Shown: positions 1,313-22,218 of the stretch, piece by piece
How the letters are laid out: each line of letters opens with the position of its first letter
How positions within the stretch are numbered: the first letter of the stretch is position 1
Origin: a virus
DNA length: 22,534 bases
IMG/VR virus record: IMGVR_UViG_3300042905_001586
Span: 1-22,534 of that record
Strand: one strand, 5' to 3'
Notes under the pieces: generated by a model
Database searches by the model: none
The model's input: only the letters and a program-made list of their open reading frames with translations
What the model was told of the DNA's origin: nothing
Translations under genes and position numbers: made by a program

Positions 1313-3964
1313 ATGCCTCTGATCAGTAGCTCTATACCCAACCTGATCAACGGGGTCAGTCAGCAACCAGCGGCATTGCGACTGGCGTCCCAATGCGAGC
1401 AAATGGTCAACTGCATGCCCAGCCCCGTGGAAGGGCTGAAGAAGCGACCACCAGCTCAACACGTGGCCAAGCTGTTCTCGGGATCAGCTGGCTCCAGCCG
1501 CCCATTCACGACCATCGTCGACAGGGATGGCGCCATCCGGTACCTGGTTTTGATCCTGGACAACGACATCAAAGTCTTTGGCCTGGATGGTTCTGTCAAG
1601 ACGGTGGCCAAGCCTGACGGCACGTCGTATCTCAACATCACTGGCGAACCCAGTGCCGTGTTCCGAGTGGCCTCGGTGGCCGACTACACGTTCATCGTGA
1701 GTCGGGAAAAGACGGTGGCCATGGCAGCCACGACGTCGCCCACCTGGGGCACCAAGTCCATGGTGTTCATCAAGTCTGCTGAGTACGCCACCACGTACAG
1801 CATCACCGTCAACTCCACCACGGTCACGTACGAAACCTTGCCGGCCGGTGGCAAGCGGATGTCAGCCACGTACAGCAGGAGCTCCAACACGGTCACGGTG
1901 ACGGCTACAGCCCATGGCCTGGCCACTGGCAATCAGGTGGACATGAGTTTCCAGAGTGGCTCTGGCACCGCTGGCACCTTCACGATCACGGTGACTGGTG
2001 CCGACACGTTCACGTACGCCGACCCGGTAGGTGGTACGACGTCAGGCAACTGCACCGTCGTCCATGAACCAAACTACAGCCCGAGCACAGTTGAGATTGC
2101 TGCGGCCCTGAAGGCAGCCTTGGCCACAGCACTGGGCGGCACGTTCACCGTTACCAACGGCACCGGCCAGTACGTCGTGCGAATCACCAAGAACGACGGG
2201 ACCGATTACACGTTGAGCTCCACCGACACCAAGACCGGCCTGGCCACTGTCGCCGTCAAGGGAACCATCGACAGCATCAGCGACTTGCCCGTCACCGCTG
2301 AGCACGGGTTCATCGTTGAGATCACGGGGGCCGCGGCCACCGGCGCCGACGACTACTACGTGAAGTTTGTGGCCAACGCGGGCTCTGGCTTTGGCCATGG
2401 CATTTGGCAGGAGACCGTGGCCCCTGCCATCCAGTACCTGTTCGATGCGACAACCATGCCGCACGTGTTGGTGCGAGAAACCGACGGCACCTTCACGTTT
2501 CGGAAGTTCACGTGGTCCGGCCGGGTGGCTGGTGACGCCATCACTGCACCGAACCCGAGCTTTGTTGGGTCCACGATCCAGAACGTCAACCTGTTCCGCA
2601 ACCGACTGGCGTTGTTGGCTGATGAGAACGTCATCCTGTCGGCAGCTGATGCGTACGACAGGTTCTGGCCCGAGTCCGTGCAGACCGTGGTCGACTCCGA
2701 CCCCATTGATCTCAGTGCCGGCAGCAGAAAGATCAACCTGCTGACGTCGAGCCTGGCCTTTGCTGACGTGTTGCTGGTCTTCAGTCGCAACGGCCAGTTC
2801 AGGTTGAGTGGTGGCAATGCAGTTGCTGCGTCGTTGACACCCAAGACCGCGACCATCACCCAGATCACAGCGTTTGAGATGAGCCAAGCGGTGGACCCGG
2901 TGATCGTGGGTCGCACCATGTACTTCCCGGTGCCTAGGGGTGAGTACGGCGGCTTGAGGGAGTTCTTCTTGCCGGACGCATCAGGCCCGGTGCCCACGTC
3001 GGAGGAAGTGACGGCAGCGGTGCCACGGTTCTTGCCATCAGACCTGTCGAACTTGATTGCGACAGCAGCGGAGGAGGCGGTCTATGCCGTGTCCAAGAGC
3101 CAGCCCAGGCGCATCTACCTCTACAAGTTCCTGTTCCAGGGGGACAACAAGCTGCAAAGCGCCTGGAGTTACTGGGAGTTCAACGCCGGCAAGAGCGTCA
3201 TTGGCATAGACCTAATCGAAAGCGATCTATATGCCGTGGTCCAGTATTCCGATGCCGTGTACTTGGAGCGCATTGTCACTCACCCGGACGCTGTGGACGC
3301 CGGCACGACGGTGGAGATGCTGTTGGACCGCAAGACCACGGAGGCCAGCTGCTCCGTGGCGTTGACGACGCCGAGTGGTCTCGATGTCCAGAGCACCATT
3401 ACCCTGCCGTACCCCATCAACACCAGCACCAGCAACATGGCCGTGGTTGGCCGGTTCTTTGCTGGCAACACCCTGCAGCACGGCCAGGTCGTTCAGGTCC
3501 TGTCGTCCACTGCAGCTGGTGGAGCCGGTGGCAACGGCACCCTCACGGTCCGTGGGGACTTGACTGGCGCTGAGTTCTTCGTGGGTGAGCTGTACGACAT
3601 GCTGTACGAGTTCAGCACCCAGTACCTGAAGGAGCAGCCCCCCGGTGGTGGCATGGCTGTGATTGCAGGACCCAAGCTGCAGCTCCGCACCTGGACCATG
3701 CTGTTCGACAAGTCGTCGTCATTCAGCATCAAGGTCACCCCCCGTGGCCGGGACACCCAGACCTACCCGTACACCGGCTTTGAGATTGGGGACCAGGAGG
3801 TCAGCCTGGGTGAGCTGGCTCTCCGCACTTCCAAGTTCCGGGTGCCGGTGATGGCCCAGAACATCGAGGCCAAGATCGAGATCACCAGCTCCTCACCGCT
3901 GCCCTGTCGCCTTCAGTCCGCAGAATGGGAAGGTTGGTACCACACCCGAGCTGCGCGTCTGTGA
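1313..3964 (+). CDS. Tail tubular protein B (gp12-like nozzle)
   Basis: An 883-residue homologue of T7 gp12 (794), the hexameric tail nozzle below the gp11 ring. The N-terminus (LINGVSQQPAALRLASQCEQ, then MVNCMPSPVEGLKKRPP) is the family signature, followed by the expected beta-propeller region (FRNRLALLADENVILSAADAYDRFW region) and a C-terminal part typical of podovirus nozzles. Residues about 183-250 (TVTVTATAHGLATGNQVDM region) are a small Ser/Thr/Gly-rich beta module that looks inserted and helps explain the extra length. No clear Shine-Dalgarno precedes the ATG; expression probably depends on coupling to gp11 three bases upstream. The stop codon overlaps the GTG start of the next gene as GTGA. 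Confidence 0.92.
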   Translation: MPLISSSIPNLINGVSQQPAALRLASQCEQMVNCMPSPVEGLKKRPPAQHVAKLFSGSAGSSRPFTTIVDRDGAIRYLVLILDNDIKVFGLDGSVKTVAKPDGTSYLNITGEPSAVFRVASVADYTFIVSREKTVAMAATTSPTWGTKSMVFIKSAEYATTYSITVNSTTVTYETLPAGGKRMSATYSRSSNTVTVTATAHGLATGNQVDMSFQSGSGTAGTFTITVTGADTFTYADPVGGTTSGNCTVVHEPNYSPSTVEIAAALKAALATALGGTFTVTNGTGQYVVRITKNDGTDYTLSSTDTKTGLATVAVKGTIDSISDLPVTAEHGFIVEITGAAATGADDYYVKFVANAGSGFGHGIWQETVAPAIQYLFDATTMPHVLVRETDGTFTFRKFTWSGRVAGDAITAPNPSFVGSTIQNVNLFRNRLALLADENVILSAADAYDRFWPESVQTVVDSDPIDLSAGSRKINLLTSSLAFADVLLVFSRNGQFRLSGGNAVAASLTPKTATITQITAFEMSQAVDPVIVGRTMYFPVPRGEYGGLREFFLPDASGPVPTSEEVTAAVPRFLPSDLSNLIATAAEEAVYAVSKSQPRRIYLYKFLFQGDNKLQSAWSYWEFNAGKSVIGIDLIESDLYAVVQYSDAVYLERIVTHPDAVDAGTTVEMLLDRKTTEASCSVALTTPSGLDVQSTITLPYPINTSTSNMAVVGRFFAGNTLQHGQVVQVLSSTAAGGAGGNGTLTVRGDLTGAEFFVGELYDMLYEFSTQYLKEQPPGGGMAVIAGPKLQLRTWTMLFDKSSSFSIKVTPRGRDTQTYPYTGFEIGDQEVSLGELALRTSKFRVPVMAQNIEAKIEITSSSPLPCRLQSAEWEGWYHTRAARL
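1859..2062 (+). other. Inserted 'HGL' beta module within the gp12-like gene
   Basis: Residues 183-250 of the nozzle protein read as a Thr/Val-alternating strand, an AHGLATGNQVDM turn, then a GTFTITVTGADTFTY strand pair. This pattern (xxHGL-x-TGDxV...GTYTVTxVDxxTFT) recurs in many phage and marine virion proteins as a small decorative beta domain; that statement is from memory. It interrupts sequence that otherwise reads as gp12-like. The boundaries are approximate. Confidence 0.55.
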
Positions 3965-4431: not shown

Positions 4432-5136
4432 ATGTGCGGACCAATCCCAATCATCATGGGCGTCGTCAGCGCCGGCCTTGGCATTGGCCAGGCGGTGGCT
4501 GGCGCTCAAGCCGCGCAGCAGCAGGTTAATTTCGCCAATGCCCAGGCCCAGCAGAACTTTGCGTTTCAGCAGATGCAGGCCGGTTCCGCTCGGAACTTTG
4601 AGCAGATGCGGGCCAATCAGCAGGAAGAGCTGATGCGGATCAATCGCTTGATGGCCGACAACGCTTACGCCAACGACATCGCCACCCTCAACTCCCGGCT
4701 GATGCAGGAGCAGGCAGCTGCCAGCCAGGAGACGCAGAAGGGCGCGATCGCTGGGGCCAAGGCCCGAGGCGAGATTATTGCGTCCGGTCGCCTGGGCAAC
4801 ACCGTTGACAACCTGGTGGCTGACTTCCGCCGGCAACAAGCCCAGTTCGACTACGCCACCAGCCAGAACCTGGCGTTCACTGGCACCCAAGTCCAGCTCC
4901 AGAAACAAGGGGTTGCGGCTGAACGTGGATCCCGAATCGCCAGCCAGCAGCCGTACATCCAGCAGCCGGTGCTGGATCCATTGGAACCCTTGTACCAGAA
5001 GGCGCCAAGCATGGCGCCGTTCTTGCTGCAGGGGGCAGGGGCCGTTCTGGGTGGCGTCCAGACGGGCTTGAGCACAGCTTCGTCCATGAAGGCTGCTGGG
5101 CTCAAGACAAATTACTGGGGCTTCAAGAGGGAATAA
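4432..5136 (+). CDS. Internal virion protein B (gp14-like)
   Basis: A 234-residue counterpart of T7 gp14 (196), the core protein ejected first and placed in the outer membrane. The protein opens MCGPIPIIMGVVSAGLGIGQ, a hydrophobic glycine-rich segment (about 5-24). A long Gln/Ala-rich helical region (about 28-180) follows, with repeated NFANAQAQQNFAFQQMQ and RRQQAQFDYA-like heptads. A second hydrophobic stretch (about 194-212, MAPFLLQGAGAVLGGVQTG) lies near the C-terminus. This layout matches podovirus gp14 proteins, including those of cyanophages. A GAGG motif at 4418-4421 is a plausible ribosome-binding site. It sits three bases after the gp13-like gene and three bases before gp15. Confidence 0.86.
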   Translation: MCGPIPIIMGVVSAGLGIGQAVAGAQAAQQQVNFANAQAQQNFAFQQMQAGSARNFEQMRANQQEELMRINRLMADNAYANDIATLNSRLMQEQAAASQETQKGAIAGAKARGEIIASGRLGNTVDNLVADFRRQQAQFDYATSQNLAFTGTQVQLQKQGVAAERGSRIASQQPYIQQPVLDPLEPLYQKAPSMAPFLLQGAGAVLGGVQTGLSTASSMKAAGLKTNYWGFKRE

Positions 5137-5139
5137 CTC

Positions 5140-7884
5140 ATGGCACGTTTATCCACCGGTCAGTCTTACGGCGAAGCCAGCCGCGCCACAGCTGCTCAGC
5201 TCCTGGGCGGGATCCCGGTCGATGGGTTCGCTGGTGCCTTGGCGCAGGGCTCTATTGCCACCCCGTCCCTGCAGCCACGGGCGACACCTGTCGATACTTT
5301 CCAGCGGGTTGGGGCACCAACGCTGGGTGGGCCTCCAAAGATCTTTGCGCCCCCGGATCTGCCGAATCCCGGTCAGGATCTGGCGAACCTGTCCAAGGCC
5401 CTGGGTGGGTTCAGCTCCACCCTGCAGAACTTTGGCGAGACATGGCTCGCCAACAAGCAGCAGGAGGACAAGAGGCAAGAGGCAGCCACTGGGGCCCTTG
5501 TTGGCCAAGCCAGCAGGTTTGGTCCAGCCCGTGGCATTGCCGATCTGGCTGCCAACCTGGAGAAAGCTGCGGCCCTGGGGAACCCAGATGCAGCCCGCAT
5601 GCTGCAGGTTGTCCGAGAGAAACAGAACTCCTCGGTTGGCAAATACTGGCTGGAGCGTTCCGTTGAGCAAAACGCGATCCAGAACGCAGCCCTGAGCTTG
5701 CCGGACCGGATAGCCAACACCTCCACGATCAAGGTGAATGGCAAGGACGTTGAACTCAACACCCTGTCGTCCGACGACCCCAGGTACTTGCAGTACCGGG
5801 ACGAGCAACTGTTTGGCGGCGCACAGATGTCGCCCCAGGGCTACGCCAAGAACCAAGGCATCATTATTCAGGCGCAGCTCCAGGCCGACCAGGTCCAGCG
5901 CAAGAAATACAACACGGCCGAGGCTGGCAGGTTGACAGCCCAGGTCGCGGTCAACAGGCAAAGCATTGCCGCCGATTACATCTCCGTTCGCGGCAAAGGT
6001 AACGACGTCTATGCCATTCAGTACGTCGGCCGGGCCCTGCAACAGGAGATTGATTCGATCAGGATCCTTGGCGTGCCGGAGGAAACAAAGACAGAGCTGA
6101 CCAACAAATACCTTGAAGGGTTTGCCGCCGACGTCGTTTCAGCTGCTAGGTCCCAAGGCTTTGCCATTGTCGACATGGATGCAGTGCTAAAGCCTGCCCT
6201 CCGCTCGGTGATGATTGGCCCCGTTGATCAACGGGTCAAGGCAGACGGCACCCCGAACCAAGCCTTGCGCCTGTACAACACCCTGGGCGGCGAAGCGTTT
6301 CTGGACCAGGTGGCAGCCAGAGCCAATGCTGCCCAGATCCAAGACAACACCCAGCAGTCCCAAATGGCTGGCATCCAGGAGCAGCAGGCCTACGACGCCC
6401 GACTGGCCGCAGCCTTGCCGGAGGGGCGTCGTTCTGATCCGGCTGCCATCAAGAGCTTCTTCCAGGCCGAGCGGAATCGGGCGGCTGTTGAACCTGACGG
6501 CATCAAGCGGGCAGCCATGTTCTCGCAGCTTGATGCGTCCGAGCGTCAGTTGACTGAGACTTTTGTCAAGCCGGTCCAGGAGCAACGGGCCTTGTGGTAC
6601 ACCCAGCAGCTGGCCAACACGGCTGGCGACGAGGCTGCCCGCAACAGGTTGACAGCTCAACTGCAAACGGACCTACTTGCTGACCGGATCACCAGCGCAA
6701 CGGCCATCAGCATCCAGACCACGCTGTCGGCCCAGGGCTCCAAAGAGGTGCGGACCTACGACAAGGACATCAACAAGCGCATCGACACAATGTCCAAGGA
6801 GTGGGAGCTGTACATCGGCAGCCCTAACTCCTACGGCGATTCCACCGTCACATCGTTTGAGTCCCAGGCCCTGTACAAGTTCCGAGACGACGCACGTCGC
6901 AGGTCTCACGAAGTCGTGTACCAAGCCATTAAGGATGGAAAGGATCCGGTGCAGGCACTGAATCAGCTGTGGACCAACAGCAACTTTGGTCTCCGCAAGC
7001 GTGAGGACGTCGGTGGCACCCAGGCCCCCATGTATGAGAACGGTTCTCAGTTGATGAAAAAGAACACGGGCAACTGGAGCCGCAGCACCATTGCCCCACG
7101 GGACGCCAACAATCTGCGGGGCCAGGCCAAGGTCCGGCCGCTGTACGGGGCGGAAGCCTTTGCGGCCGACGTCGACGCTTTCCTCAATGGGACGCCCAGC
7201 CAAAACTTCAGGACGCTGATGAAAACGTTGACGACAGGGGCCGGTGGCCAGAAGCCGTCTGAAGTGATCTTGAATCAGTTTCGCCTTCTGGGCATCGACG
7301 TGCCGGAAGATCAACGCCAGCGCATCCAGTCCATGGATGGCCAGGAGATCTCAAGGGCAACGCCTGCGCGTCGCACGGCTCCCCAGCAAAACGGGGCCTT
7401 GGCTGGCGTCCAGATTGTTGGCGGGGCCTTGGGCAACTTGTTGGCGCCACCGGCTGCAGCTGCACCAACCGTCGCGGCCACAATGCGGCCAGTGGTTGCT
7501 GCCAGGACCCAGTCGACGGTGACCCCACAGGCCAGGGTCGACGGTTACATGAAACGCTTGGCCTACATCGAAACCAGAATCCGCAACATCCCCAACGCCG
7601 AAGGGTCGCCTGGCCGCGGCTACTTCCAGGCGTTCCCGCCCTTTGCCAAGGAAGCCATTGCGGCATCGGGTGGCATTGATCCACGGGACCCGGATTACAA
7701 CCGATCGGCCAAAGCTTCAGCCGCTTGGATCCGCACGTACAACAAGCCGGCCTGGGCGGCGATCCAGGCCGGTCGTTACGACGAAGCAGATCGGTTGCTG
7801 CGCAACACGTGGCCGTCGTTGCCAGGCGGAAGCCAGGCCCAGAAGCCAGAGGTGCAAAAGGCTGCCCGCAAATATCTTCGTTGA
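5140..7884 (+). CDS. Internal virion protein C (gp15-like) with C-terminal lysozyme-like domain
   Basis: A 914-residue counterpart of T7 gp15 (747), the core protein expected to form the periplasmic tube with gp16. A good Shine-Dalgarno (AGAGGGA) precedes the ATG at 5140. The N-terminal ~790 residues are mostly helical and Gln/Ala-rich, with segments such as LGGFSSTLQNFGETWLANKQ and ALGNPDAARMLQ typical of gp15 proteins of marine podoviruses. Around residues 755-800 an Ala/Pro/Thr-rich linker leads into a C-terminal domain (803-914) resembling phage lambda endolysin, with a candidate catalytic E811. T7 gp15 lacks this enzyme domain; T7 carries its transglycosylase on gp16. The identity as gp15 rests on position, size and composition more than on motifs. 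Confidence 0.85.
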   Translation: MARLSTGQSYGEASRATAAQLLGGIPVDGFAGALAQGSIATPSLQPRATPVDTFQRVGAPTLGGPPKIFAPPDLPNPGQDLANLSKALGGFSSTLQNFGETWLANKQQEDKRQEAATGALVGQASRFGPARGIADLAANLEKAAALGNPDAARMLQVVREKQNSSVGKYWLERSVEQNAIQNAALSLPDRIANTSTIKVNGKDVELNTLSSDDPRYLQYRDEQLFGGAQMSPQGYAKNQGIIIQAQLQADQVQRKKYNTAEAGRLTAQVAVNRQSIAADYISVRGKGNDVYAIQYVGRALQQEIDSIRILGVPEETKTELTNKYLEGFAADVVSAARSQGFAIVDMDAVLKPALRSVMIGPVDQRVKADGTPNQALRLYNTLGGEAFLDQVAARANAAQIQDNTQQSQMAGIQEQQAYDARLAAALPEGRRSDPAAIKSFFQAERNRAAVEPDGIKRAAMFSQLDASERQLTETFVKPVQEQRALWYTQQLANTAGDEAARNRLTAQLQTDLLADRITSATAISIQTTLSAQGSKEVRTYDKDINKRIDTMSKEWELYIGSPNSYGDSTVTSFESQALYKFRDDARRRSHEVVYQAIKDGKDPVQALNQLWTNSNFGLRKREDVGGTQAPMYENGSQLMKKNTGNWSRSTIAPRDANNLRGQAKVRPLYGAEAFAADVDAFLNGTPSQNFRTLMKTLTTGAGGQKPSEVILNQFRLLGIDVPEDQRQRIQSMDGQEISRATPARRTAPQQNGALAGVQIVGGALGNLLAPPAAAAPTVAATMRPVVAARTQSTVTPQARVDGYMKRLAYIETRIRNIPNAEGSPGRGYFQAFPPFAKEAIAASGGIDPRDPDYNRSAKASAAWIRTYNKPAWAAIQAGRYDEADRLLRNTWPSLPGGSQAQKPEVQKAARKYLR
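7546..7881 (+). other. Lambda-endolysin-like lytic transglycosylase domain (gp15 C-terminus)
   Basis: Residues 803-914 of the gp15-like protein align by eye with lambda R endolysin. LAYIETR matches LAWSEGT around the catalytic glutamate (E811 here). GSPGRGYFQAF matches GAGRYQLL (825-830). The helical middle and IQAGRYDEADRLLRNTWPSLPGG match the lambda stretch ending SNIWASLPG (W891). A role in opening peptidoglycan during DNA entry is inferred. T7's unrelated SLT-type domain sits at the gp16 N-terminus, and the giant gp16 here starts without one. Confidence 0.75.
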
Positions 7885-7938: not shown

Positions 7939-10900
7939 ATGCCTATCCAAACGATCCGCGACCCCAAGACCGGGGAGGAGCGCCGGGTCTATGTGTCGTC
8001 AGGTGGCATGGGGGCAGGGGCTCCACCTAAACCCAAGCCCCAGCCATCGGCCGGCGGTGGATTCATGGGGACGTTGAACGACTTCAACCCCATGAAGCAG
8101 ATCACTGCTCTCGGGACTGGTGTCTCCACGTTCATGCAGACCGGGGACCTGAACAAAAGCATTGCAGCTGCGTCGAGGGAAGCTGCGCCGACGACGGCCC
8201 TGGGTCAATCAGTCAGCCGGACCCTGGCGGCAGGCGGTCAACGGGCTGTGGATGCAGCTCGGCTTGAGATCGACCGAGCACGTCTGGCCCGGGAGCAGAT
8301 GGCAGCAGGCACGTCGCCCATGGACGTCAAGATCCCATCCAGGGGCCCCGGCGCCCCCAATGCCACGCGAGTGCGGCTGCCCGAGTGGGCCAACTACGAC
8401 GACATGCGCGTTGAACCCAAGAACCCGGTCGAGGACGTCGCTGCCAGCATCGTTGGGTTTGTCCCGTATTTCGCCGTTGCCCGTGGAGCCGGGGCCCCAG
8501 CACAGGCCTTGGTGCGTGGGTTGCCTGGCGTGTCCAGGGTGGCCACTGGCTTTGAAGCCGCGACTGCTGGCCTGAAAGCTGCTGGTGGCGCCAAGCGTGT
8601 TGCCGGCATCTTTGCGGAAGAGGCCGTCTCTGGTGCCATCCCGAGCGCCATTGCCACCTACTACGCCACCAAGCCCACCGACAAGACGTTGAGCGACAGC
8701 TTGGCCGAGACGGTCAAGGGCTCAGTGTTTGAGGGTGTCGTGGCCAGGGGCCTGTTGGCCGACCCGAATGACACGGTTGAGCAGGCCCGCATCAAGCAAT
8801 CCATCAACGACCTGATCTGGTCGGTGCCCTTGGGCGGTGGCTTGGGCACGGGCTTCCGTGGCATTGGCGCCATGGCAGGTGCCACCAAGCGAGCATTTGC
8901 CGACGTCATCCAGGGCACGATCAAGGTTGGCCAGGCTGATCAAGCCGTAAAGGATGCAACTACGGCACCGGTTGCGGCTGCCGTCGACCCGAGTGTCCCA
9001 AGTGCGGGAACTCCAGCCCCTGCTGCTGCACCAGCGCCGCGTGTCGTGTCCGGCAAGCCAGCGTTCTCGTCTGTGGCGTACTACCAGGGCCTGCGTCGTC
9101 AGCCGTTGTGGGAAAAGACCGGCGTCGAGATCCAAGGACGCCTGGAGCCCCAGGCCCCGCAGTCGCTTCCGGTTGACTCGTACACCGCCAAGCTGAACTA
9201 CAGCGACGTCAGGCCTGACGCTGGCCCGCTGAACGCCAGTGGCAAGAGGTATGCACAGGCCCTGGCTGGCCAGGATCAGATTGCGATTGAGGCGACGTCG
9301 CAGAAGCTCCGGGCCACGTTCAACAACGCGGCCGCCAAGCTTGGCATCGAGCTTGGCCCCAATGCCAGCAGCCAGTCGTGGTCCATGTGGGACATCGGCA
9401 AGCAGCTGTACATGGATGCCAACCCAGCGAAGAGCAACAAGCCGTATGTGCTTGGCAACCCGCTGACCAACATCCAGGTCCAAGCCGACATCGTCGACCG
9501 GATGCTTGGATTTGAGATCACCAAAGGGGTTGACGTTGAGGGGAAGCGCCTGAAGTCCTGGCAGCTGACGTCGATCGGCCGCAAGGCCCGGGAAGACGCA
9601 GGCGTCGAGCTTGGCCTAATGCCGGACCCCGGCTCCCAGCGCACCATCCCGGCCCCCAGCGCACCACCGACGCCAGAAGCTGCAGCAGCGGCCCTGCAAC
9701 AGGCTCAAGCCGAGCTGGTTGTAGCGACACAACGACTGCAGTCCGAGGCCGCCAAGGAGGTGGTGACTGCGCCTGAGGTTGCAGCGGTGCCCCAGGGCCA
9801 GCTGCCAGGCATGAACCAGCCGGCCTACGAGCAGGTTGCCACTATCCCGACTGGTGACGCTGCTGTTGCACCAAAGGTTTTCCAGTACAAAGCAGAGGGC
9901 CAGACGGCCACCGGCCGCAGTGGATCGCTTGCTGAGGAGAACGTCTACGACCCCCGGTACGCAGGCGTCATCAGCGTTTGGCGGGACAAGCTGGGCGAGC
10001 TTGGGCCTGTCAATCAGATCTACGTCGCAAACGGCCACAACCGGCATGAGCTTGCTGTACGCAGTGGGTTCCCGATGATCAATGTGCAGTTCATCGAGGC
10101 CGCGACAGCCGCAGAAGCCCGCGTCGTTGCAGCACTGCAGAACATCAAGGATGACAGGGGCACCGCTGTCGATGCCGGCAAGCTTCTCCGGGACACCGGC
10201 ATGTCCATCGAGGACCTGCGCCTTCAGAACGTCAACCTGAACGGGAAGCTGGCCAGCGAAGGTGTGGCCCTCAGTCGCTTGCCTCAGTGGTTGTTTGACA
10301 AGGCCGCTACCGGCAGCCTGCCCACCCCCAAGGCCGTGGCTTTGGGCTCTGCCGAAGGGGTTGACGACGCAATCATCAGCGACGTCGCCAAGCAAGCAAT
10401 CGCTGGCAAGTGGTCGGCCGAGAAGATTGTCCAGGCCATGCAGGAGGCCAAGTTCGCCAGCACCAGCACCGGAGGCGGTGACGCAGGTCCTGTGTTGCCT
10501 GGGTTTGAGGAGATGCTCAAGACCAGCAACGTTGTGGCCTTGATCGACATCAGGACCGCTGCGTTCAACAAGCTTTCGGGGGAGATGCGGGCCCTGACCG
10601 CTGCATCCCAGGCCAAGAACACCAGTTACCTGGAGGCCGCCGGTAACACCATCAACGTCGAAGGCAGCCAAGCCGCTCGCAAGATGGCGGCTGAAGCCGT
10701 CGCTGTATTCAACAGGGTCACCGCGTACGAAGGTCCGGTCCGCAACATCTTGAACGAGCTGGCGGCCCAGCTGCCAGAAGGGGCAGGTCGCTCCAAGGCC
10801 GCAGCGAACCTGGTGCAGTTCAATCTCCAGCGGTTGAGGGACGCAATCTCTGAGGAGATGAATGGGCCGCGGTTGCTTCAGGACGAAGCTGTGGCCAAGC

Positions 10901-13900
10901 AGATCCAGGAGCCACCGGCCCCAACTGCCGCAGCTGAACCTGCCGCCACAACCTTTGCCGACCCCCTAGAGGCTGAGAACCTGGCTGATGCCCGTGGGTT
11001 CCTGGGGCTCCCTGCGACCGCCAACGTGGCCCAGGTTGCGCGGGTGGCCAAGCAGGAGGGCTACGACGGCATTGTGTTCACCGGGGACTTTGGCCTGCCC
11101 GGTGGCAAGAGGGAGATCGACCTCAGGGCCCTGCCTGAAGTCAAGGCCCCTGAGAACGCTGGGAACCCGGTGCCGATTCAGGCCAAGCCGGTTGACGTGG
11201 CGCCAGCTACTGCCATCGAGCCACCCACCGTTTCGGATGAAGCGGTCAAAGCCCTGGAGAAGGCATATCCGTACAGGCCGTATCGCGGCCAGGGGGCAGT
11301 AGACATTGCGCAAGAAAGGCTCAACCGTGTCCAGGCTTTACTGGAAAGCACAAGGTTTGAACTTGAAGCGCTGAGGGCCAGCAAGCCCGAGCCGGGCGCA
11401 ACTGGTGCCGTGGCGCGAAAAGCCCAGCTCGACTGGCAGCGCAATTTCGCCAAGTTCACTGAGCAAGAAGCGGCAGTCGTCCAAGACCTCGCAACGGCTC
11501 AGGCGGTGGTGGATCAGTTCATGAACGCCCCCACCGGTGCCATTACCCCTGGCTTCACGGCCAAGACCGGTGGCGCCAAGGACGAGAACGAAGCCATCTC
11601 CACCGCTCTGGAGCGCCAGGCGTTAGCCGAGGAGGCTGGTGACACCGAGCTGGCTGGCGAACTGGGCACTTGGCTTGGTCGTCGGGGCGTGGCGGTCCAG
11701 CCCATGGGCGACGTGGCTGCTGCGATCGAGCCCCCAACGCTGACCTTGCCCCGTGAGCTGGCAGGCCTCAAGCCCCGTTACAGCTACGGCCAGAAGCGGT
11801 TTGAGTTGACCTTTGAGACCGACCTGGACCGTGTTGCCTACACCTTGGCTGGTGACGCCACCGGCAAGCCATCCAAGTCGCACCAGAAGTACCGGGATTG
11901 GCTGGAGTCCAACGGCCTGGACCCGGCGGAAGTTGCTGCGTACGGGGCCCGCGTCGTCAAGCCCAGCATCAAGGAGATGGCGGCCACCGCGCAGCCAGGC
12001 ACCCTCCAGGTGCGGAACCAAGGCTTTGGTGGCGCTGACTTCCAGGCCGAGCTGCCCAACCTTGAGGGCTGGCGCAACGTCGAAACCGGCGTCGGTGGCA
12101 CCGTTGGCGAGGGGTACACAGGTGCTACCCGCATCACCGAACGGGAAGCCAGCGAGCTGGCCCGGATTGCGTTCAACATCAGCGGTGTCACGGATTTCAG
12201 GATCCAGGAACGGATCGAGGCCACCTATGGGCCACGCCAGGCCCGGGCGTACGGCGACATGAGTTTGGTCGGTCAGAAGGCCGAGATCGCTGGGTCGTAC
12301 CGGCACGGCAAGGCCATGGCTGACGACACGATCACTGTCGCGATGACGGCTTACGGGGTGCCAAAGTCGTTCACCCAGATGATGACGACGACGTACCACG
12401 AGTCCATGCACCGGCTCATGGAATGGTTCTTTGCATCTGCCGAGAAGCTGGTGTTGGCCAGGTCTGAGAAGGGCCTGAGAGAGATGGCAGCCTTGCTGAT
12501 GGAGGACTCCCTCCAGCCCAACAAAGCCCGGGCGTACCGGGACGGCACCATCCAGATGGGCGAGGTGATCTCTGATGCGTTTGCTGCATACATGCGGGGC
12601 ATCACCTTGCCAAAGGTTGACCTGCAGGGCTTTGCAAAGCTGAAGAATTACATCGACCAGTCGATCAACTACATCATCAGCGGCGGCAAGTACAAGACCT
12701 GGGACGACGTGTTTGAGAAGGCTGCGCTGGGCGAGTTCCAAGGCCGTGGTGGTACCGGAGAGCCTGGTGTCCAGTTCGCCGCCGATCCCCCGGACCCCGC
12801 TGAGTTCGCCCGGCGCATTGACCAGAACCTTCAGGCCCTGGAGTCCGGGGACCTGACCCCTGAGGAAATTGCCCAAATGGGCGCCAGCGACGTGCGTCGG
12901 ATCACCAGCCGCTCGGGCAACACCCAGTACGTGCCGAACGCGCCAGACACCCTAATTGCCAGCAACAAGGCCCTAGGCGAGATGCTGACCAGCAGGGCCC
13001 AGCAGACCGGCATCGAGAGCTACAGCCAACCAGCGGTCGTCAAGGCCGCCATGGACCAGCTGGACGCCGATGGGTGGGCCGTTGAGTCAACAGTGACCCG
13101 GCTTGAGGCCGCCCGCCGCGGTGACCCCAAGTCTCAACAGGACCTGGTGGCTCTCGCTGCCAACCTGATCCACCGGGACCACATCGCCGCCCAGAACGGC
13201 ATGACCGCGATTGAGTGGCAGTCCGCCGTGGACGAGGCTGATCGTGCTGCGTCGATGCAACGGTTGTGGTCTGGCCTTGAGGACCAGCACCGCCTCGACA
13301 CCGCTTTGATGACGGCCACCCGCAAGGACGGCCAGCGGTTGAGCGTGATGCAGATCAAGTACGACTTCGACCCGACGCACAGGCAGGTGCCAGCCGGGAC
13401 CCCCCTGTACCACGGCACGACGGAAGCCAATGCCCAGTCGATCGTCGACAACGGGTTCCAAGCTTCTGGCCCCAACAGCAATTTGCTGGGCAGCGGTGTG
13501 TATTTCGCCAATGACCCGCGTTACGCAGGGGCCTACGGCGAGGCCGCTGCAGCTGGCGACCTGCCCAGCGACGTGCGGATCCTTGACTTGGTGGCGATGG
13601 ACAAGCGCATTGCCGACCTGGTGCAGGAACTGAACCTCGGCCCCCTTGAGCGGTTTGAGGAGAACCTGTACATGACTGGAGCCCAGAAGGCCGCAGTCCG
13701 CGATTGGGCCGTGGGCCAGGGCTACTCCGGCATCCGGTTCAACCCGGACTTTGAGCTGGGCGAAGGTGCCCCAGAGACCGTCATCTTCGACACCAACGTC
13801 GCCAACCGCATCGTCGGGTCCAAGGCGGCTGTGGAACCCGAGATGCCAGCAACAGCTGAGTCGATGGGCACCGACATCGAGAACGAGATCGCCAACCCCC

Positions 13901-16389
13901 TGAACACGATCCTGGGCAAGATCGACCCCGACATCAGGTCCGACATCGAGCAAGGGGTCATGAGCCCCGAAGCCACCGAGATGACCGAGGTCGCTGCCCA
14001 GGTCGCTATCTCCGGCCGCGGCAATCCTGGGATGCGGGCCAAGCTCAACAGCATCGTCGGCAAGATCGACGTCGGCCGGCTGAACCAGGAAATGTTTGTG
14101 CAGGCGTACCGGGCTGCGCTGCTGTGGTCGCCCAAGACCTGGACCAAGATGCTCGTCGGCTCTGCGTACCGGGCCGTCACGATGCCCATCAACCAGGCCA
14201 TCGCTGAGACCGGAACAGCTGGCATCGCCGCCCTCAAAGGCGACAACAAGGCCGCGTACCGGGCCATGCGCCAAGCCAGCTTGAACATGGGCATGTACGG
14301 CAAGTACGTGTCCAACTGGTCCAACGCTTTCCGCTTGGTCGGGGAATCGTTCCGCACTGGCGAGAGCTTCGGCAACCTGGGTGCCTCGTCGATGGACTTG
14401 GCCCAACGGAACCTGGGACAAGGCGACGGTCAGACGTCGCTCTTTGGCGAGACCCGTGACCCGGCCAACACATTGGAGAACCCGTGGTGGATTGATCCTG
14501 AGAACATGAACATCCCGGCCCAGTTTGCCCACAAGGCCTGGAAGCTCTTGAGCGTCTCTGGTCGGGTCTCGGGTTCGCTGGACACGTTCTTCTCGTCACT
14601 CATCGGCCCCAGCGCCGAATGGAGCCGGATCATGGGCCTGGAGCTTGAGAAAGCCGAAGGTCGTGGACTGACTGGTGACGCAGCTTGGGCTGAGGCCAGC
14701 AAAATCACCGACGAACGCATTGAGAACCAGTGGGTCAACGTGCTCCTGAACGACAAAACTATTGAGAACGGTGCGTTCACTGGGATCCATGCCAAAGCCG
14801 CGATGGACTGGATCAACTTCACCGATGACCTAGACGTCCAGTTCCAGCCCCGGAGCTACGAGTACGGCATTGCCAAGGCCAAGGAAGAGGGCATCACTGA
14901 CACCGCTGAGATCAACAGGCGGGCCCTGGCCTGGATGCAAGAGGAGCCGCCCGTCTGGGCGCAGCGGGGCATGGGCGTCGGTCAAGCCGTTGGCTGGATG
15001 CCCAAGGCGTTCAAAGACGCAATCAACCACACGCCAGCGCTGGGCATCTTGAATCCGTTCCCCACCAGCCCGGCCAACATCACTAAGGCCGCCATGCGGG
15101 CCACGGGTGTCGGCGCTCCGTTCGTCGACTCCTTTTACCGGGATGTCTTCAGCGAAGACCGCAACACCAGGGCTCGGGCCATTGGCGAAATTGCCACCGC
15201 GTACATGACGCTCGTCGGTGGGGTCATGTTGGCCACCAGCGGCTTCGTTGAACTCAGTGGACCTGGGTCGTACAACCCGCAAACCAGGGCCAAGATGCAG
15301 CGCCTTGGCTCCCAGCCGTACTCCATCCGGTTCAAGAACCCGGCCACTGGTGACACGACACGGTGGTGGGACCTGCAAGCCCTGGACACGGTCAGCAACG
15401 TGTTCTCGTTGATCGGCCTGCAGATGAACCTGAACAACAGCTTGCCAAAGGAGGACCGGAAGATCCTGGCGTCCAACTTCGTCTTGTCTGTTGCTGAGAC
15501 AGCCCGCCAGGTCGGCTTTGCCCAATTCACCAAGGACATGTACAAGTCCATGGGCGAGATTTTCAATTTGGTCTCCGAACTGCAAGACAAGAGCTTTGTG
15601 CCGACCGAGGGCCAGATCGATCCGTTCTCTGGCTACGTCCAACGACGTCTCGCTGGGTTCATGCCGGCCATTTTCAACAACACGCGCAAAGGCACGGATG
15701 GGTACCAGCGGGCCATCGAGAAATCCGAGTTGCCACAGCCGTTTGCCTTTGCCCATGAGCTGGCGCAGCGGTTTGCAAGCAGGATCCCAGGCTTGTCGGA
15801 TCAACTGCCACCGATCCTGCACCCCCTCACCGGTGAGCCAATCGCCATCGAGCAGGTCTGGGGCGTCAACTACTTGCCACAGGACCAGCCGTGGCTCAAA
15901 GGTGCCGTCAACGCCATGAGCCCCTTGGCCTTCACCCCCACCAAGGAGGGCTCCAAGGACCCGGTCGACATCGAGCTGGGTCGGTTGTCTGGTCGCGGCA
16001 CCGCTTTTCAGATCTGGGGACCCAACGAGCTGGGCTTGCCAAACTTCCGCATGAACCAGACCCAGCTGAACAAGCTGGCCGTGATCACCAGCCAGTTCAT
16101 CCCACCGGGTCGTGGATCAACGCTGCACCAGGGCTTGAGCGCCATGGTGGCCCCTGGTTCCAGCTATTGGCAGCTGCCGCCTCCGGAGGCCAGCAAAGCC
16201 ACTCCAAGCCGTCGGGCCATCCGCATCAACAAGGAGATCAACTACTACAAGCCTTTCATCAAGGCCGAGTTCTTGGCATCGGAACCAAACCTTGCGAGGA
16301 TGATCGAAGAAAACAAGGCCTCCCAAGCCCAGGCCACCTTTGATGCCGCCTACGGCATGCAGTCGTCCTGGTCCCCAACCCCCCGCTAA
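7939..16389 (+). CDS. Giant internal virion protein D (gp16-like) with polyvalent effector domains
   Basis: A single open frame of 2816 residues in the gp16 slot; T7 gp16 has 1318. In T7 this core protein is ejected and spans the inner membrane. Residues 1-335 (FMGTLNDFNPMKQI, then hydrophobic VAASIVGFVPYFAVARGAGA) and ~1960-2816 (long helical part with a hydrophobic segment near 2415-2436, IGEIATAYMTLVGGVMLATSGF) look like virion sequence. Between them are Ala/Pro-rich linkers (about 340-372, 563-630, 990-1005, 1065-1105). They separate a ParB/DdrB-like domain (648-~790, GHNRHE at 699-704), a coiled-coil-like stretch (1115-1195), an unrecognised 1275-1335 segment, a zincin-like domain (HESMH 1487-1491) and an ADP-ribosyltransferase-like domain (H1825, Y1855, E1946). 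T7's N-terminal transglycosylase is absent. Base composition is uniform throughout, arguing against a recent insertion. The gp16 role is inferred from position and ends; the domains are seen as motifs only. Confidence 0.85.
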   Translation: MPIQTIRDPKTGEERRVYVSSGGMGAGAPPKPKPQPSAGGGFMGTLNDFNPMKQITALGTGVSTFMQTGDLNKSIAAASREAAPTTALGQSVSRTLAAGGQRAVDAARLEIDRARLAREQMAAGTSPMDVKIPSRGPGAPNATRVRLPEWANYDDMRVEPKNPVEDVAASIVGFVPYFAVARGAGAPAQALVRGLPGVSRVATGFEAATAGLKAAGGAKRVAGIFAEEAVSGAIPSAIATYYATKPTDKTLSDSLAETVKGSVFEGVVARGLLADPNDTVEQARIKQSINDLIWSVPLGGGLGTGFRGIGAMAGATKRAFADVIQGTIKVGQADQAVKDATTAPVAAAVDPSVPSAGTPAPAAAPAPRVVSGKPAFSSVAYYQGLRRQPLWEKTGVEIQGRLEPQAPQSLPVDSYTAKLNYSDVRPDAGPLNASGKRYAQALAGQDQIAIEATSQKLRATFNNAAAKLGIELGPNASSQSWSMWDIGKQLYMDANPAKSNKPYVLGNPLTNIQVQADIVDRMLGFEITKGVDVEGKRLKSWQLTSIGRKAREDAGVELGLMPDPGSQRTIPAPSAPPTPEAAAAALQQAQAELVVATQRLQSEAAKEVVTAPEVAAVPQGQLPGMNQPAYEQVATIPTGDAAVAPKVFQYKAEGQTATGRSGSLAEENVYDPRYAGVISVWRDKLGELGPVNQIYVANGHNRHELAVRSGFPMINVQFIEAATAAEARVVAALQNIKDDRGTAVDAGKLLRDTGMSIEDLRLQNVNLNGKLASEGVALSRLPQWLFDKAATGSLPTPKAVALGSAEGVDDAIISDVAKQAIAGKWSAEKIVQAMQEAKFASTSTGGGDAGPVLPGFEEMLKTSNVVALIDIRTAAFNKLSGEMRALTAASQAKNTSYLEAAGNTINVEGSQAARKMAAEAVAVFNRVTAYEGPVRNILNELAAQLPEGAGRSKAAANLVQFNLQRLRDAISEEMNGPRLLQDEAVAKQIQEPPAPTAAAEPAATTFADPLEAENLADARGFLGLPATANVAQVARVAKQEGYDGIVFTGDFGLPGGKREIDLRALPEVKAPENAGNPVPIQAKPVDVAPATAIEPPTVSDEAVKALEKAYPYRPYRGQGAVDIAQERLNRVQALLESTRFELEALRASKPEPGATGAVARKAQLDWQRNFAKFTEQEAAVVQDLATAQAVVDQFMNAPTGAITPGFTAKTGGAKDENEAISTALERQALAEEAGDTELAGELGTWLGRRGVAVQPMGDVAAAIEPPTLTLPRELAGLKPRYSYGQKRFELTFETDLDRVAYTLAGDATGKPSKSHQKYRDWLESNGLDPAEVAAYGARVVKPSIKEMAATAQPGTLQVRNQGFGGADFQAELPNLEGWRNVETGVGGTVGEGYTGATRITEREASELARIAFNISGVTDFRIQERIEATYGPRQARAYGDMSLVGQKAEIAGSYRHGKAMADDTITVAMTAYGVPKSFTQMMTTTYHESMHRLMEWFFASAEKLVLARSEKGLREMAALLMEDSLQPNKARAYRDGTIQMGEVISDAFAAYMRGITLPKVDLQGFAKLKNYIDQSINYIISGGKYKTWDDVFEKAALGEFQGRGGTGEPGVQFAADPPDPAEFARRIDQNLQALESGDLTPEEIAQMGASDVRRITSRSGNTQYVPNAPDTLIASNKALGEMLTSRAQQTGIESYSQPAVVKAAMDQLDADGWAVESTVTRLEAARRGDPKSQQDLVALAANLIHRDHIAAQNGMTAIEWQSAVDEADRAASMQRLWSGLEDQHRLDTALMTATRKDGQRLSVMQIKYDFDPTHRQVPAGTPLYHGTTEANAQSIVDNGFQASGPNSNLLGSGVYFANDPRYAGAYGEAAAAGDLPSDVRILDLVAMDKRIADLVQELNLGPLERFEENLYMTGAQKAAVRDWAVGQGYSGIRFNPDFELGEGAPETVIFDTNVANRIVGSKAAVEPEMPATAESMGTDIENEIANPLNTILGKIDPDIRSDIEQGVMSPEATEMTEVAAQVAISGRGNPGMRAKLNSIVGKIDVGRLNQEMFVQAYRAALLWSPKTWTKMLVGSAYRAVTMPINQAIAETGTAGIAALKGDNKAAYRAMRQASLNMGMYGKYVSNWSNAFRLVGESFRTGESFGNLGASSMDLAQRNLGQGDGQTSLFGETRDPANTLENPWWIDPENMNIPAQFAHKAWKLLSVSGRVSGSLDTFFSSLIGPSAEWSRIMGLELEKAEGRGLTGDAAWAEASKITDERIENQWVNVLLNDKTIENGAFTGIHAKAAMDWINFTDDLDVQFQPRSYEYGIAKAKEEGITDTAEINRRALAWMQEEPPVWAQRGMGVGQAVGWMPKAFKDAINHTPALGILNPFPTSPANITKAAMRATGVGAPFVDSFYRDVFSEDRNTRARAIGEIATAYMTLVGGVMLATSGFVELSGPGSYNPQTRAKMQRLGSQPYSIRFKNPATGDTTRWWDLQALDTVSNVFSLIGLQMNLNNSLPKEDRKILASNFVLSVAETARQVGFAQFTKDMYKSMGEIFNLVSELQDKSFVPTEGQIDPFSGYVQRRLAGFMPAIFNNTRKGTDGYQRAIEKSELPQPFAFAHELAQRFASRIPGLSDQLPPILHPLTGEPIAIEQVWGVNYLPQDQPWLKGAVNAMSPLAFTPTKEGSKDPVDIELGRLSGRGTAFQIWGPNELGLPNFRMNQTQLNKLAVITSQFIPPGRGSTLHQGLSAMVAPGSSYWQLPPPEASKATPSRRAIRINKEINYYKPFIKAEFLASEPNLARMIEENKASQAQATFDAAYGMQSSWSPTPR
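9880..10308 (+). other. ParB/DdrB-like domain inside gp16
   Basis: Residues 648-790 include VNQIYVANGHNRHELAVRSG, matching the ParB/sulfiredoxin-fold box (DGHHRxxAA) with G699, H700, R702 and H703. A RVVAALQNIKDDRGTA helix follows, resembling the NIaEG/N-x-R region. The next part (LPGFEEMLKTSNVVALIDIRTAAFNKLSGEMR) is like the helical stretch after the DdrB-type ParB domains of phage polyvalent proteins. These domains can be NTP-binding or nuclease-like; activity here is not shown. Confidence comes from the box plus its followers. Confidence 0.72.
10996..11136 (+). other. Possible remnant ADP-ribosyltransferase C-terminus inside gp16
   Basis: Residues 1020-1066 read VAKQEGYDGIVFTGD, a short loop, then GGKREIDLRALPE. 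The pattern 'x-GYDGIxF ... E-x-x-x-x-P' is how ART-type domains in polyvalent proteins usually end (compare GYSGIRFNPDF...PETVIFD in the ART domain of this same protein). No HGT or GxYF motif precedes it, so it would be a fragment at best. Chance similarity is a real alternative. Confidence 0.3.
12133..12708 (+). other. Zincin-like metallopeptidase domain inside gp16
   Basis: Residues 1399-1590 contain TTYHESMHRLMEWF, a HExxH zinc-binding helix (H1487, E1488, H1491). About 50 residues on, GEVISDAFAAYM offers a third acidic ligand (E1542 or D1546). A hydrophobic strand (DDTITVAMTAYG) precedes the helix, as is usual in zincins. Metallopeptidase domains of this kind are known in phage polyvalent proteins. 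They may process the carrier protein or attack host proteins; which applies here is unknown. Confidence 0.68.
13390..13818 (+). other. ADP-ribosyltransferase-like domain inside gp16 (H-Y-E type)
   Basis: Residues 1818-1960 carry the three ART motifs in order. LYHGTT (H1825) binds NAD. GFQASG...LGSGVYFANDPRYAGAYG has Y1855 at the PARP-like tyrosine. GYSGIRFNPDF...GAPETVIFD has E1946 at the catalytic glutamate. The order, spacing and the GxGVYFA phrase match H-Y-E (diphtheria toxin/PARP-like) transferases. T4 Alt/Mod are precedent for virion-borne ADP-ribosylation of host RNA polymerase, although they belong to the R-S-E class. The target here is unknown. Confidence 0.82.
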
Positions 16390-19415: not shown

Positions 19416-19985
19416 TCAGTAGTCCCACCTTAGCCGGGGTTTGCCGGGGCGCATCCCGACGTGGATGAAGCCCCGGGGAGCCCCGAGACCCAAGGAATAC
19501 GGCCACTCCTTGTCGGCCCAGGCCTGCAAGGTGTAAATGGACTCCCCGTCGATGTAGAAGTCGACGGCGCCGGTGTTCGGTGCGTCGTAAAGGTGCTCTG
19601 AACGGCTGGCACCACCCACCTGGGCGTTGATCCTGGGGGGCCTGTGGCCAGAGGTGATGATTGCGGGTCCACCGAAGTGATCCCGGGCTTTCTGGACGAA
19701 CTGAGCCAGGACCAGAGCCGTGTCGCACTGATGTTGAGCCACGAACCTGCGGGCTTCGGACTGTTGAGTGAGCTCGCCGTACGCCACGTTGGGGGTCAGG
19801 TTGTAGCTGAACGGGGATCCGGGCTGGAATAGGCCCACCTTGGGCTCCGGGGCCGCCCTGTACGCCTCTGCAAAGTCCTCAAGCTGCTTGGGCGTCAGGG
19901 TTTCTTGGAGCCCGTTCCAAGCCGCCAGCTGATGCGGCAGGCCGGCGTCGTGTTTAGCTGCGTCTGCGAGACGAATAACCGACAT
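19416..19985 (-). CDS. Endolysin, peptidase M15 family
   Basis: A 189-residue lysin. The N-terminal module (about 1-50, SVIRLADAAKHDAGLPHQLA, then AWNGLQETLTPKQLEDFAEA) is a helical domain I associate with cyanophage lysins. The C-terminal M15_3-type peptidase carries ITSGHRPPRINAQVGGASRS, SEHLYDAPNTGAVDF and GFIHVGM. The zinc ligands are H131 (SEH), D142 (AVD) and H175 (IHVG). Such enzymes cut the peptide part of peptidoglycan (L,D- or D,D-bonds). The start at 19985 is chosen because similarity begins there; the frame stays open to 20159, but that extension translates the neighbouring gene out of frame. It overlaps the 73-residue gene by 32 bases. T7 uses an unrelated amidase (gp3.5) located in the early region. 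Confidence 0.88.
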   Translation of the reverse strand: MSVIRLADAAKHDAGLPHQLAAWNGLQETLTPKQLEDFAEAYRAAPEPKVGLFQPGSPFSYNLTPNVAYGELTQQSEARRFVAQHQCDTALVLAQFVQKARDHFGGPAIITSGHRPPRINAQVGGASRSEHLYDAPNTGAVDFYIDGESIYTLQAWADKEWPYSLGLGAPRGFIHVGMRPGKPRLRWDY

Positions 19986-20175
19986 TTGCGCTGGCGAGAG
20001 GGGTCTTGGGAAAGATTTGGACGTTGTCCACCTTCCACGGGATACGTTCCCAGACATCGCAGTACGTGGCAATGTCCCAAGCCATTTCTTCGTTTTCTGC
20101 AACGACGATGGTCTGAAAAGAGCCCAGCTCCCTGGTGCCCCCGTACCCAATGAACTCACCGGGGATCCGGATCAC
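19954..20175 (-). CDS. Hypothetical protein (73 residues) between terminase and lysin
   Basis: A 73-residue protein read from a GTG at 20175 with a possible TAGGG ribosome-binding site six bases upstream: VIRIPGEFIGYGGTRELGSF, QTIVVAENEEMAWDIATYCD, then VWERIPWKVDNVQIFPKTPL. The composition is that of a real globular protein, whereas the same frame upstream of the GTG reads as shuffled terminase. The 'IRIPGxFIGYGGTxExGxFQTIxV' beta-rich start resembles small phage proteins whose function I do not know. It starts 22 bases after the terminase stop and overlaps the lysin start, so it belongs to the same leftward operon. ATG is absent; the GTG start is the only sensible choice. Confidence 0.65.
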   Translation of the reverse strand: MIRIPGEFIGYGGTRELGSFQTIVVAENEEMAWDIATYCDVWERIPWKVDNVQIFPKTPLASANVGYSSRRRS

Positions 20176-20197
20176 CCAGGCCCTAGTGCCAGGTCGC

Positions 20198-21922: not shown

Positions 21923-22218
21923 GCCCACACCCGCACTGGATGCTGCGGCGTTACCAGATACTCCTCCCACTCCTCAGGCAGCTCACCGACGAAGTTGACG
22001 TGCCAGCCGTCAAGCAGCACGGGTGGGGTGATCACCTTGCCGGTGTCGGTGTTGTAGGTGCCGCCTGTGCAGATGGGGCCGATGACATCCAGGGCGTGGG
22101 TGTGGCTGGCGGTGAGCACCACGGTGTCGCCGTCTTCATTGGTGGTGGTAAGACCAGCAGCATCCAGCGCAGCCATGCCGGTGGATTCGTCGGGAAAGCG
22201 GATGTAGGTGGTGGTCAT
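21919..22218 (-). CDS. Conserved small phage protein (99 residues)
   Basis: A 99-residue protein: TTTYIRFPDESTGMAALDAA, ...TASHTHALDVIGPICTGGTY, ...LLDGWHVNFVGELPEEWEEY, ending VTPQHPVRVWA. I recall this arrangement (TTTYIRFPDE start, HTHAxDVIG, LDGWHVNxxGELPxxWxxYxVxPxxPxRVF end) from small proteins next to tail fibre genes in many phages. No function is established; a tail-associated or fibre-assembly role is a guess from neighbourhood. Both ends overlap neighbours by four bases as ATGA (start at 22218 with the lectin-like gene, stop at 21919 with terminase). Translation is therefore coupled and no separate ribosome-binding site is needed. Confidence 0.75.
   Translation of the reverse strand: MTTTYIRFPDESTGMAALDAAGLTTTNEDGDTVVLTASHTHALDVIGPICTGGTYNTDTGKVITPPVLLDGWHVNFVGELPEEWEEYLVTPQHPVRVWA

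Follow-up and report, generated by a model that had tools for sequence, protein, structure and literature searches.

The locus described here raises the question of which virion protein would cut the cell wall during DNA entry in a T7-like phage whose gp16 has no SLT transglycosylase, and of what kind that cutter is. The window analysed (a whole virus record of 22,534 bases) contains a T7-like virion module, in the order partial capsid, gp11 (Tube), gp12 (nozzle), gp13-like, gp14-like, gp15-position, gp16-position and gp17. Pfam matches to T7_gp14, Phage_nozzle, Tube and Phage_T7_tail surround the gp15-position gene, whose product (5140-7884) has 914 aa. The features to which we refer are the following.

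1313-3964, plus strand: tail nozzle protein (gp12-like; Pfam Phage_nozzle, E 1.3e-243)
4432-5136, plus strand: gp14-like internal virion protein (Pfam T7_gp14, E 2.9e-9)
5140-7425, plus strand: body of the gp15-like internal virion (ejection) protein, aa 1-762 (synteny between the gp14-like and gp16-like genes; HHalign to P-SCSP1 gp15)
7426-7524, plus strand: Pro/Ala-rich linker, aa 763-795 (read from the sequence; its length varies among relatives)
7525-7881, plus strand: short-loop lambda-R-like lysozyme domain, aa 796-914 (AlphaFold2, HHalign, Foldseek, dN/dS)
7570-7572, plus strand: codon of the predicted catalytic Glu811 (aligns with Glu19 of lambda R; putative role)
7612-7629, plus strand: GRGYFQ motif, aa 825-830 (G-x-Y-Q of lambda R, G-x-x-Q of SLT)
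7810-7827, plus strand: WPSLPG motif, aa 891-896 (WASLPG in lambda R; aligned in the HMM comparison)
7939-16389, plus strand: gp16-like giant internal virion protein, 2816 aa, without SLT (HHalign to P-SCSP1 gp16)
19416-20159, minus strand: M15_3 peptidase, likely a separate lysis endolysin (Pfam PF08291, E 3.2e-17)

The M15_3 peptidase and the terminase large subunit (19416-21970) were found on the minus strand, opposite to the virion genes, which is unusual for a T7-like phage. Their orientation was the same on the contig of the relative L008.

We named the gp15-like gene by synteny, since similarity of its product to T7 gp15 was not detectable by HHalign. Comparison with the gp15-position proteins of T7, P-SSP7, Syn5, S-CBP3, HTVC019P, phiKMV and SP6 also gave nothing. 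The P-SCSP1 cyanophages were the only named phages found to have a detectable homologue of the gp15 body (HHalign probability 99.4 over 696 columns), and the gp16-like protein aligned with P-SCSP1 gp16 over 1982 columns (E 9e-210). The predicted gp15 and gp16 identities are thus based on synteny and on homology to P-SCSP1, and not on likeness to T7.

We then examined the C-terminus of the gp15-like protein. An earlier note on this DNA had proposed that it ends in a lysozyme-type domain with E811, GRGYFQ and WPSLPG. These residues were indeed present at 811, 825-830 and 891-896, and E811, G-Y-F-Q and W-P-S-L-P-G were kept across relatives collected from viral contigs in five scans. The domain starts near aa 796 (7525), a little before the position 7546 that had been given, and follows a linker that is longer in the relative L011. 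Using a 22-row alignment, AlphaFold2 modelled aa ~796-914 with a pLDDT of 93.4 and a pTM of 0.88 (six near-identical rows gave a pLDDT of 57, and the larger alignment was needed for a confident fold). The alignment A6, which includes long-loop relatives, misplaces the catalytic Glu of those relatives and was not used for the fold.

The predicted structure was lysozyme-like, as the note had anticipated. Foldseek matches in the PDB were led by i-type lysozymes, phiKZ gp144, MltF and Rpf, and were mostly lysozymes or transglycosylases, although lambda R structures were absent among the 50 PDB matches listed. In BFVD, lysozyme/transglycosylase proteins also led (probability up to 1.00, TM 0.65-0.68). 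The E-values were modest, the best being 0.19 (PDB) and 0.008 (BFVD). One viral match of 899 aa had the same length as the lysozyme of Anabaena phage Elbi, which has a lambda-R-type domain, and is perhaps that protein. As a single sequence, the window domain gave nothing useful in Pfam, PHROGs or the PDB and matched no Pfam or NCBIfam lysozyme family, and the same families were not matched by lambda R itself. In alignment A7, 14 of the 22 members matched the 'endolysin' family phrog_90 (E 5.1e-6 at best), while the window copy reached an E of 0.28 in one search and no match in another. On the basis of the model, the gp15 C-terminus is a predicted lysozyme-fold domain.

The domain might be non-catalytic and serve only as a wall binder or structural cap, since phage virion domains can lose activity and catalysis here is a prediction. 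We observed, however, that Glu811 was nearly invariant in A7 and was present in every member reaching that position, including the 33%-identical L092, and that Gln830, the Gln of GRGYFQ, was likewise kept down to that identity. The Gly and Gln of GRGYFQ were invariant in A7, and T-W-P-S-L-P was invariant in both A6 and A7. The dN/dS of the domain was 0.07-0.10 in six comparisons, against 0.19-0.39 for the rest of gp15. Purifying selection on the domain is strong (dN/dS about 0.1) and speaks for a function that has been kept. We consider a purely binding or structural role very improbable.

We further estimated the relationship of the domain to lambda R. HHalign of the domain family against an 11-member lambda R family gave a probability of 95.5, an E-value of 1.6e-8 and a score of 54.7, while the highest score in 100 column shuffles was 21.2; the resemblance to lambda R that had been noticed in the sequence was thus borne out. 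Glu811 corresponds to Glu19 of lambda R, and the motifs GRGYFQ and WPSLPG have GAGRYQ and WASLPG as their lambda R counterparts. Among PDB sequences, the two that the profile matched best were the lambda lysozyme entries 3d3d and 1am7 (weak, E 0.13). When the L045 domain was compared by tblastn with 50,697 phage records, 20 of them matched at E<1, and each of these was a lambda-R-type endolysin locus; the matches of two different members both converged on such endolysins. That single-sequence searches are weak could be taken to mean that a helical, Ala-rich segment had matched by chance. This reading is strongly disfavoured, since the profile score lies far above all shuffles, different queries reach the same enzyme family, and the confident model has mostly lysozyme-type matches.

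Lambda-R-type domains were also observed in the baseplate-hub protein of Agrobacterium phage Atu_ph07 (L027, 1492-4089) and in the ~900-aa lysozyme of Anabaena phage Elbi (L028, 686-2381).

The domain could instead be a divergent SLT (GH23) transglycosylase, with a lambda R likeness that is convergent or at superfamily level. Its Glu-to-Gln spacing of 19, shared by the short-form members (including L045 and L083), is close to that of T7 SLT (18) and P-SCSP1 SLT_3 (21), and far from that of lambda R (49) and its relatives (44-58; Yong-L1 47). In addition, one or two members weakly matched SLT models (best E 0.006), and many SLT-type enzymes were among the Foldseek matches. However, the window domain did not match the Pfam SLT model (PF01464), and HHalign against the single sequences of T7 SLT, P-SCSP1 SLT_3 and KMV36C stayed below 2% (noise level), whereas ten single lambda R relatives gave 19-94% and only the most divergent one (Atu) was at noise. 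W-P-S-L-P-G is a segment characteristic of lambda R, and the weak database matches converge on lambda R endolysins. We therefore regard a divergent SLT as unlikely.

The likeness to the lambda R endolysin family, in which one annotated relative bears the label GH104, consists of a catalytic-type Glu ending helix 1, a G-x-Y-Q-like motif and W-[AP]-S-L-P-G. Lambda R, however, is a free lysis enzyme, whereas the window domain forms part of a virion protein and has the short spacing. As the long insert of at least 44 residues between the Glu and G-x-Y-Q, by which the lambda R/GH104 group is recognized, is missing, we filed the domain as a short-loop relative of lambda R with SLT-like spacing and not as a plain member. 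This placement, read from profiles and motifs, keeps the relationship in the earlier label 'lambda-endolysin type' and qualifies it by the short loop. More distant virion-borne relatives (L093-L101) had a spacing of 43-45. Among the long-loop relatives, the long contigs L095 and L102 carry psbA and are therefore cyanophage-like.

We also evaluated gp16. No SLT was found by Pfam in the whole protein or in 300-residue windows, while T7 gp16, as a positive control, gave its SLT at E 1.7e-31. HHalign of the window gp16 to the T7 SLT was at noise level. The window record and six relatives (three of ~40-43 kb) were likewise negative for SLT when searched with PF01464, for which 8 of 14 control genomes were positive. 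The statement of the note that gp16 starts without an SLT was thus confirmed for the entire protein and record.

Other segments of gp16 were observed during these scans. Residues 1819-1870 (13393-13548) form an ADP-ribosyltransferase/PARP-like segment with PLYHGT at 13402; scanned alone, the region matched Pfam PARP at E 5.8e-7, above the curated cut-off. Residues 583-803 (9685-10347) matched phrog_21 (E 2.4e-36), far along its 1362-position profile, and contain a ParB-like motif, NGHNRHE, at 10030. The 'portal protein' label of phrog_21 probably comes from a polyvalent protein. An HExxH metallopeptidase-like motif, HESMH, lies at aa 1487-1491 (12397-12411).

The note had read these findings as a wall-cutting activity that moved from gp16 to gp15 and so freed the gp16 N-terminus for expansion. 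In its full form, this means a T7-like ancestor with a gp16 SLT and a window lineage that lost it, gained a lambda-R-type cutter on gp15 and then expanded gp16. The N-terminal SLT of T7 gp16, set against none in the window's, and the very large size of the window gp16 would fit such a history. However, several other groups of T7-like phages also have a lysozyme on the gp15 equivalent (SP6, K1E/K1-5, phiKMV and PhiM1), and P-SCSP1 already combines an SLT_3 on gp15 with a gp16 of 2563 aa. The gp37 proteins of SP6 (1270 aa) and phiKMV (1337 aa) are T7-sized and have no Pfam SLT, with the cutter on the gp15 equivalent; the two traits are therefore not coupled, and the idea of a freed N-terminus is not sustained. 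The change also cannot be polarised, as there is no sequence similarity to T7 gp15 or gp16. We consider this history very unlikely, and we found nothing that shows a move. What differs at the window locus is which cutter sits on the gp15 C-terminus, an exchange within that end to which we assign no direction.

Evidence for such exchange came from an identity table, in which the nozzle protein (gp12-like) served as a yardstick for vertical descent. A set of phages with the same T7-like gene order (group B, L045-L050) had 33-38% identity to the window in the capsid, 31-33% in the nozzle and none detectable in the gp15 body, and a terminal domain that was 72-79% identical. Closer clade members (L053, L054 and L073) had a nozzle identity of 64-82%, yet the domain was just 65-68% identical. 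P-SCSP1 was 71% identical in the capsid and 57% in the nozzle, but had SLT_3 in place of the lambda-R-like domain. The same module was found, at 57-64% identity, in tape-measure proteins (Pfam TMP_3; L078 and L083) and in structural-looking proteins of 745 aa (L080) and 1023 aa (L077, which also has M23). Overall, the module was 57-79% identical on unrelated carriers, namely gp15 bodies of distant T7-like phages, tape-measure proteins and an M23-bearing protein.

The domain tree was poorly resolved; it does not locate transfers or allow events to be counted, and it did not reject a single clade for all gp15-borne copies (p 0.19). The claim of exchange is thus based on the identity table and not on the tree. 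As judged from these sequence comparisons, module exchange appears to account best for the discordant distribution. No relative of the module turned up in two scans of genomes from bacteria and archaea, and a plasmid search gave weak, unconvincing matches; at that sensitivity, the module therefore looks confined to phages.

Some further observations were made on the carriers. The tape-measure proteins L078 (1999-7539) and L083 (2359-8541) combine the lysozyme module with an M23 or M15_3 peptidase domain. The group B gp15 proteins have a second, His-rich domain before the lysozyme domain (GNDHVHHGADD...KHQDPGHYDGRTFDIP; L050 7614-7979, with equivalents in L045-L049), which had no Pfam match and is perhaps a peptidase. 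Between the window and the near-identical L008, gp11, gp12, gp14 and gp16 were 98-100% identical and the gp15 body (5140-7530) 86%, which suggests that gp15 is a local hotspot of recombination or diversification.

Together, the computed relationship, fold, conservation, selection, gp16 without SLT and discordant distribution have led us to conclude that the window very probably encodes a gp15-like ejection protein with a linker-tethered C-terminal lysozyme-fold domain, a short-loop relative of lambda R that would cut the wall during DNA entry and has moved between virion proteins that are not related to each other. If it behaves like its counterparts in T7, phiKMV and PhiM1, the protein would be packaged in the capsid, leave through the tail before the DNA and rebuild as a periplasmic tunnel. 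The domains, tethered by the flexible Pro/Ala-rich linker, may then cut peptidoglycan glycan strands locally around the tunnel. Catalysis and bond specificity are predictions; the putative activity is probably that of a lytic transglycosylase, with Glu811 as the acid/base. The fused domain need not serve lysis, since the phage has a separate candidate lysis enzyme, the M15_3 peptidase.

If this is true, the gp15 C-terminus of T7-like phages is a socket in which wall-cutting domains that are unrelated to each other can be exchanged, and the cutter carried may reflect the host wall rather than phage ancestry. The internal virion proteins of the P-SCSP1 type had been left without annotation by their authors (PMC9860041), and a part of them would then gain a function. 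The domain is small (~120 aa) and well predicted, and its short loop may be of use in linking lambda R with the SLT enzymes. More tentatively, and with somewhat less than even confidence, we propose an undescribed family of virion-borne cutters with an SLT-like short catalytic loop and a lambda-R-like C-lobe. This family could stand between SLT (GH23) and lambda R (GH104) in evolution, and would travel as a cassette among the ejection, tape-measure and other virion proteins of environmental phages.

A gp15 that carries a lysozyme is already known and is not new in itself. Lysozyme-carrying gp15 equivalents include SP6 gp36, K1-5/K1E gp35 and phiKMV gp36 (PMC5380687, PMC8954989). SP6 gp36, K1E gp35 and phiKMV gp36 (KMV36C) share with the window the gene position and a wall-cutting domain on the gp15 equivalent. 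The SP6 cutter, however, is a Pfam Phage_lysozyme (aa 770-905, E 6.6e-10), and KMV36C has no HMM similarity to the window domain. The T7 gp16 SLT transglycosylase has the same presumed job, the local opening of the wall by an ejected protein, but it sits on a different protein, at the opposite end, and belongs to a different family. The OEP of PhiM1, also a gp15 equivalent, has a C-terminal lysozyme-like domain seen in the ejectosome/virion by cryo-EM (PMC11440229). The PhiM1 domain has ~185 residues, and a second endolysin-like domain is inserted in the PhiM1 gp16 equivalent. The nearest named relative is Prochlorococcus phage P-SCSP1, where gp15 (g20) has a homologous body, a giant homologous gp16 beside it and a C-terminal cutter; this cutter is SLT_3 (Pfam E 1.1e-13), whereas the window's belongs to the lambda-R-like short-loop family. 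SLT_3 was also found on the gp15-position protein of S-CBP3 (Pfam E 5.4e-13). As part of the overall explanation, and with the same high confidence, we propose that several interchangeable cutters occupy gp15 C-termini, namely SLT_3, a GH24-type lysozyme and the short-loop lambda-R-like family. The window gene lies between the gp14-like and gp16-like genes and its product ends in a predicted lysozyme fold, as in a virion-associated lysin on a gp15-type ejection protein. That kind is already known, and the window's version of it has not been described before.
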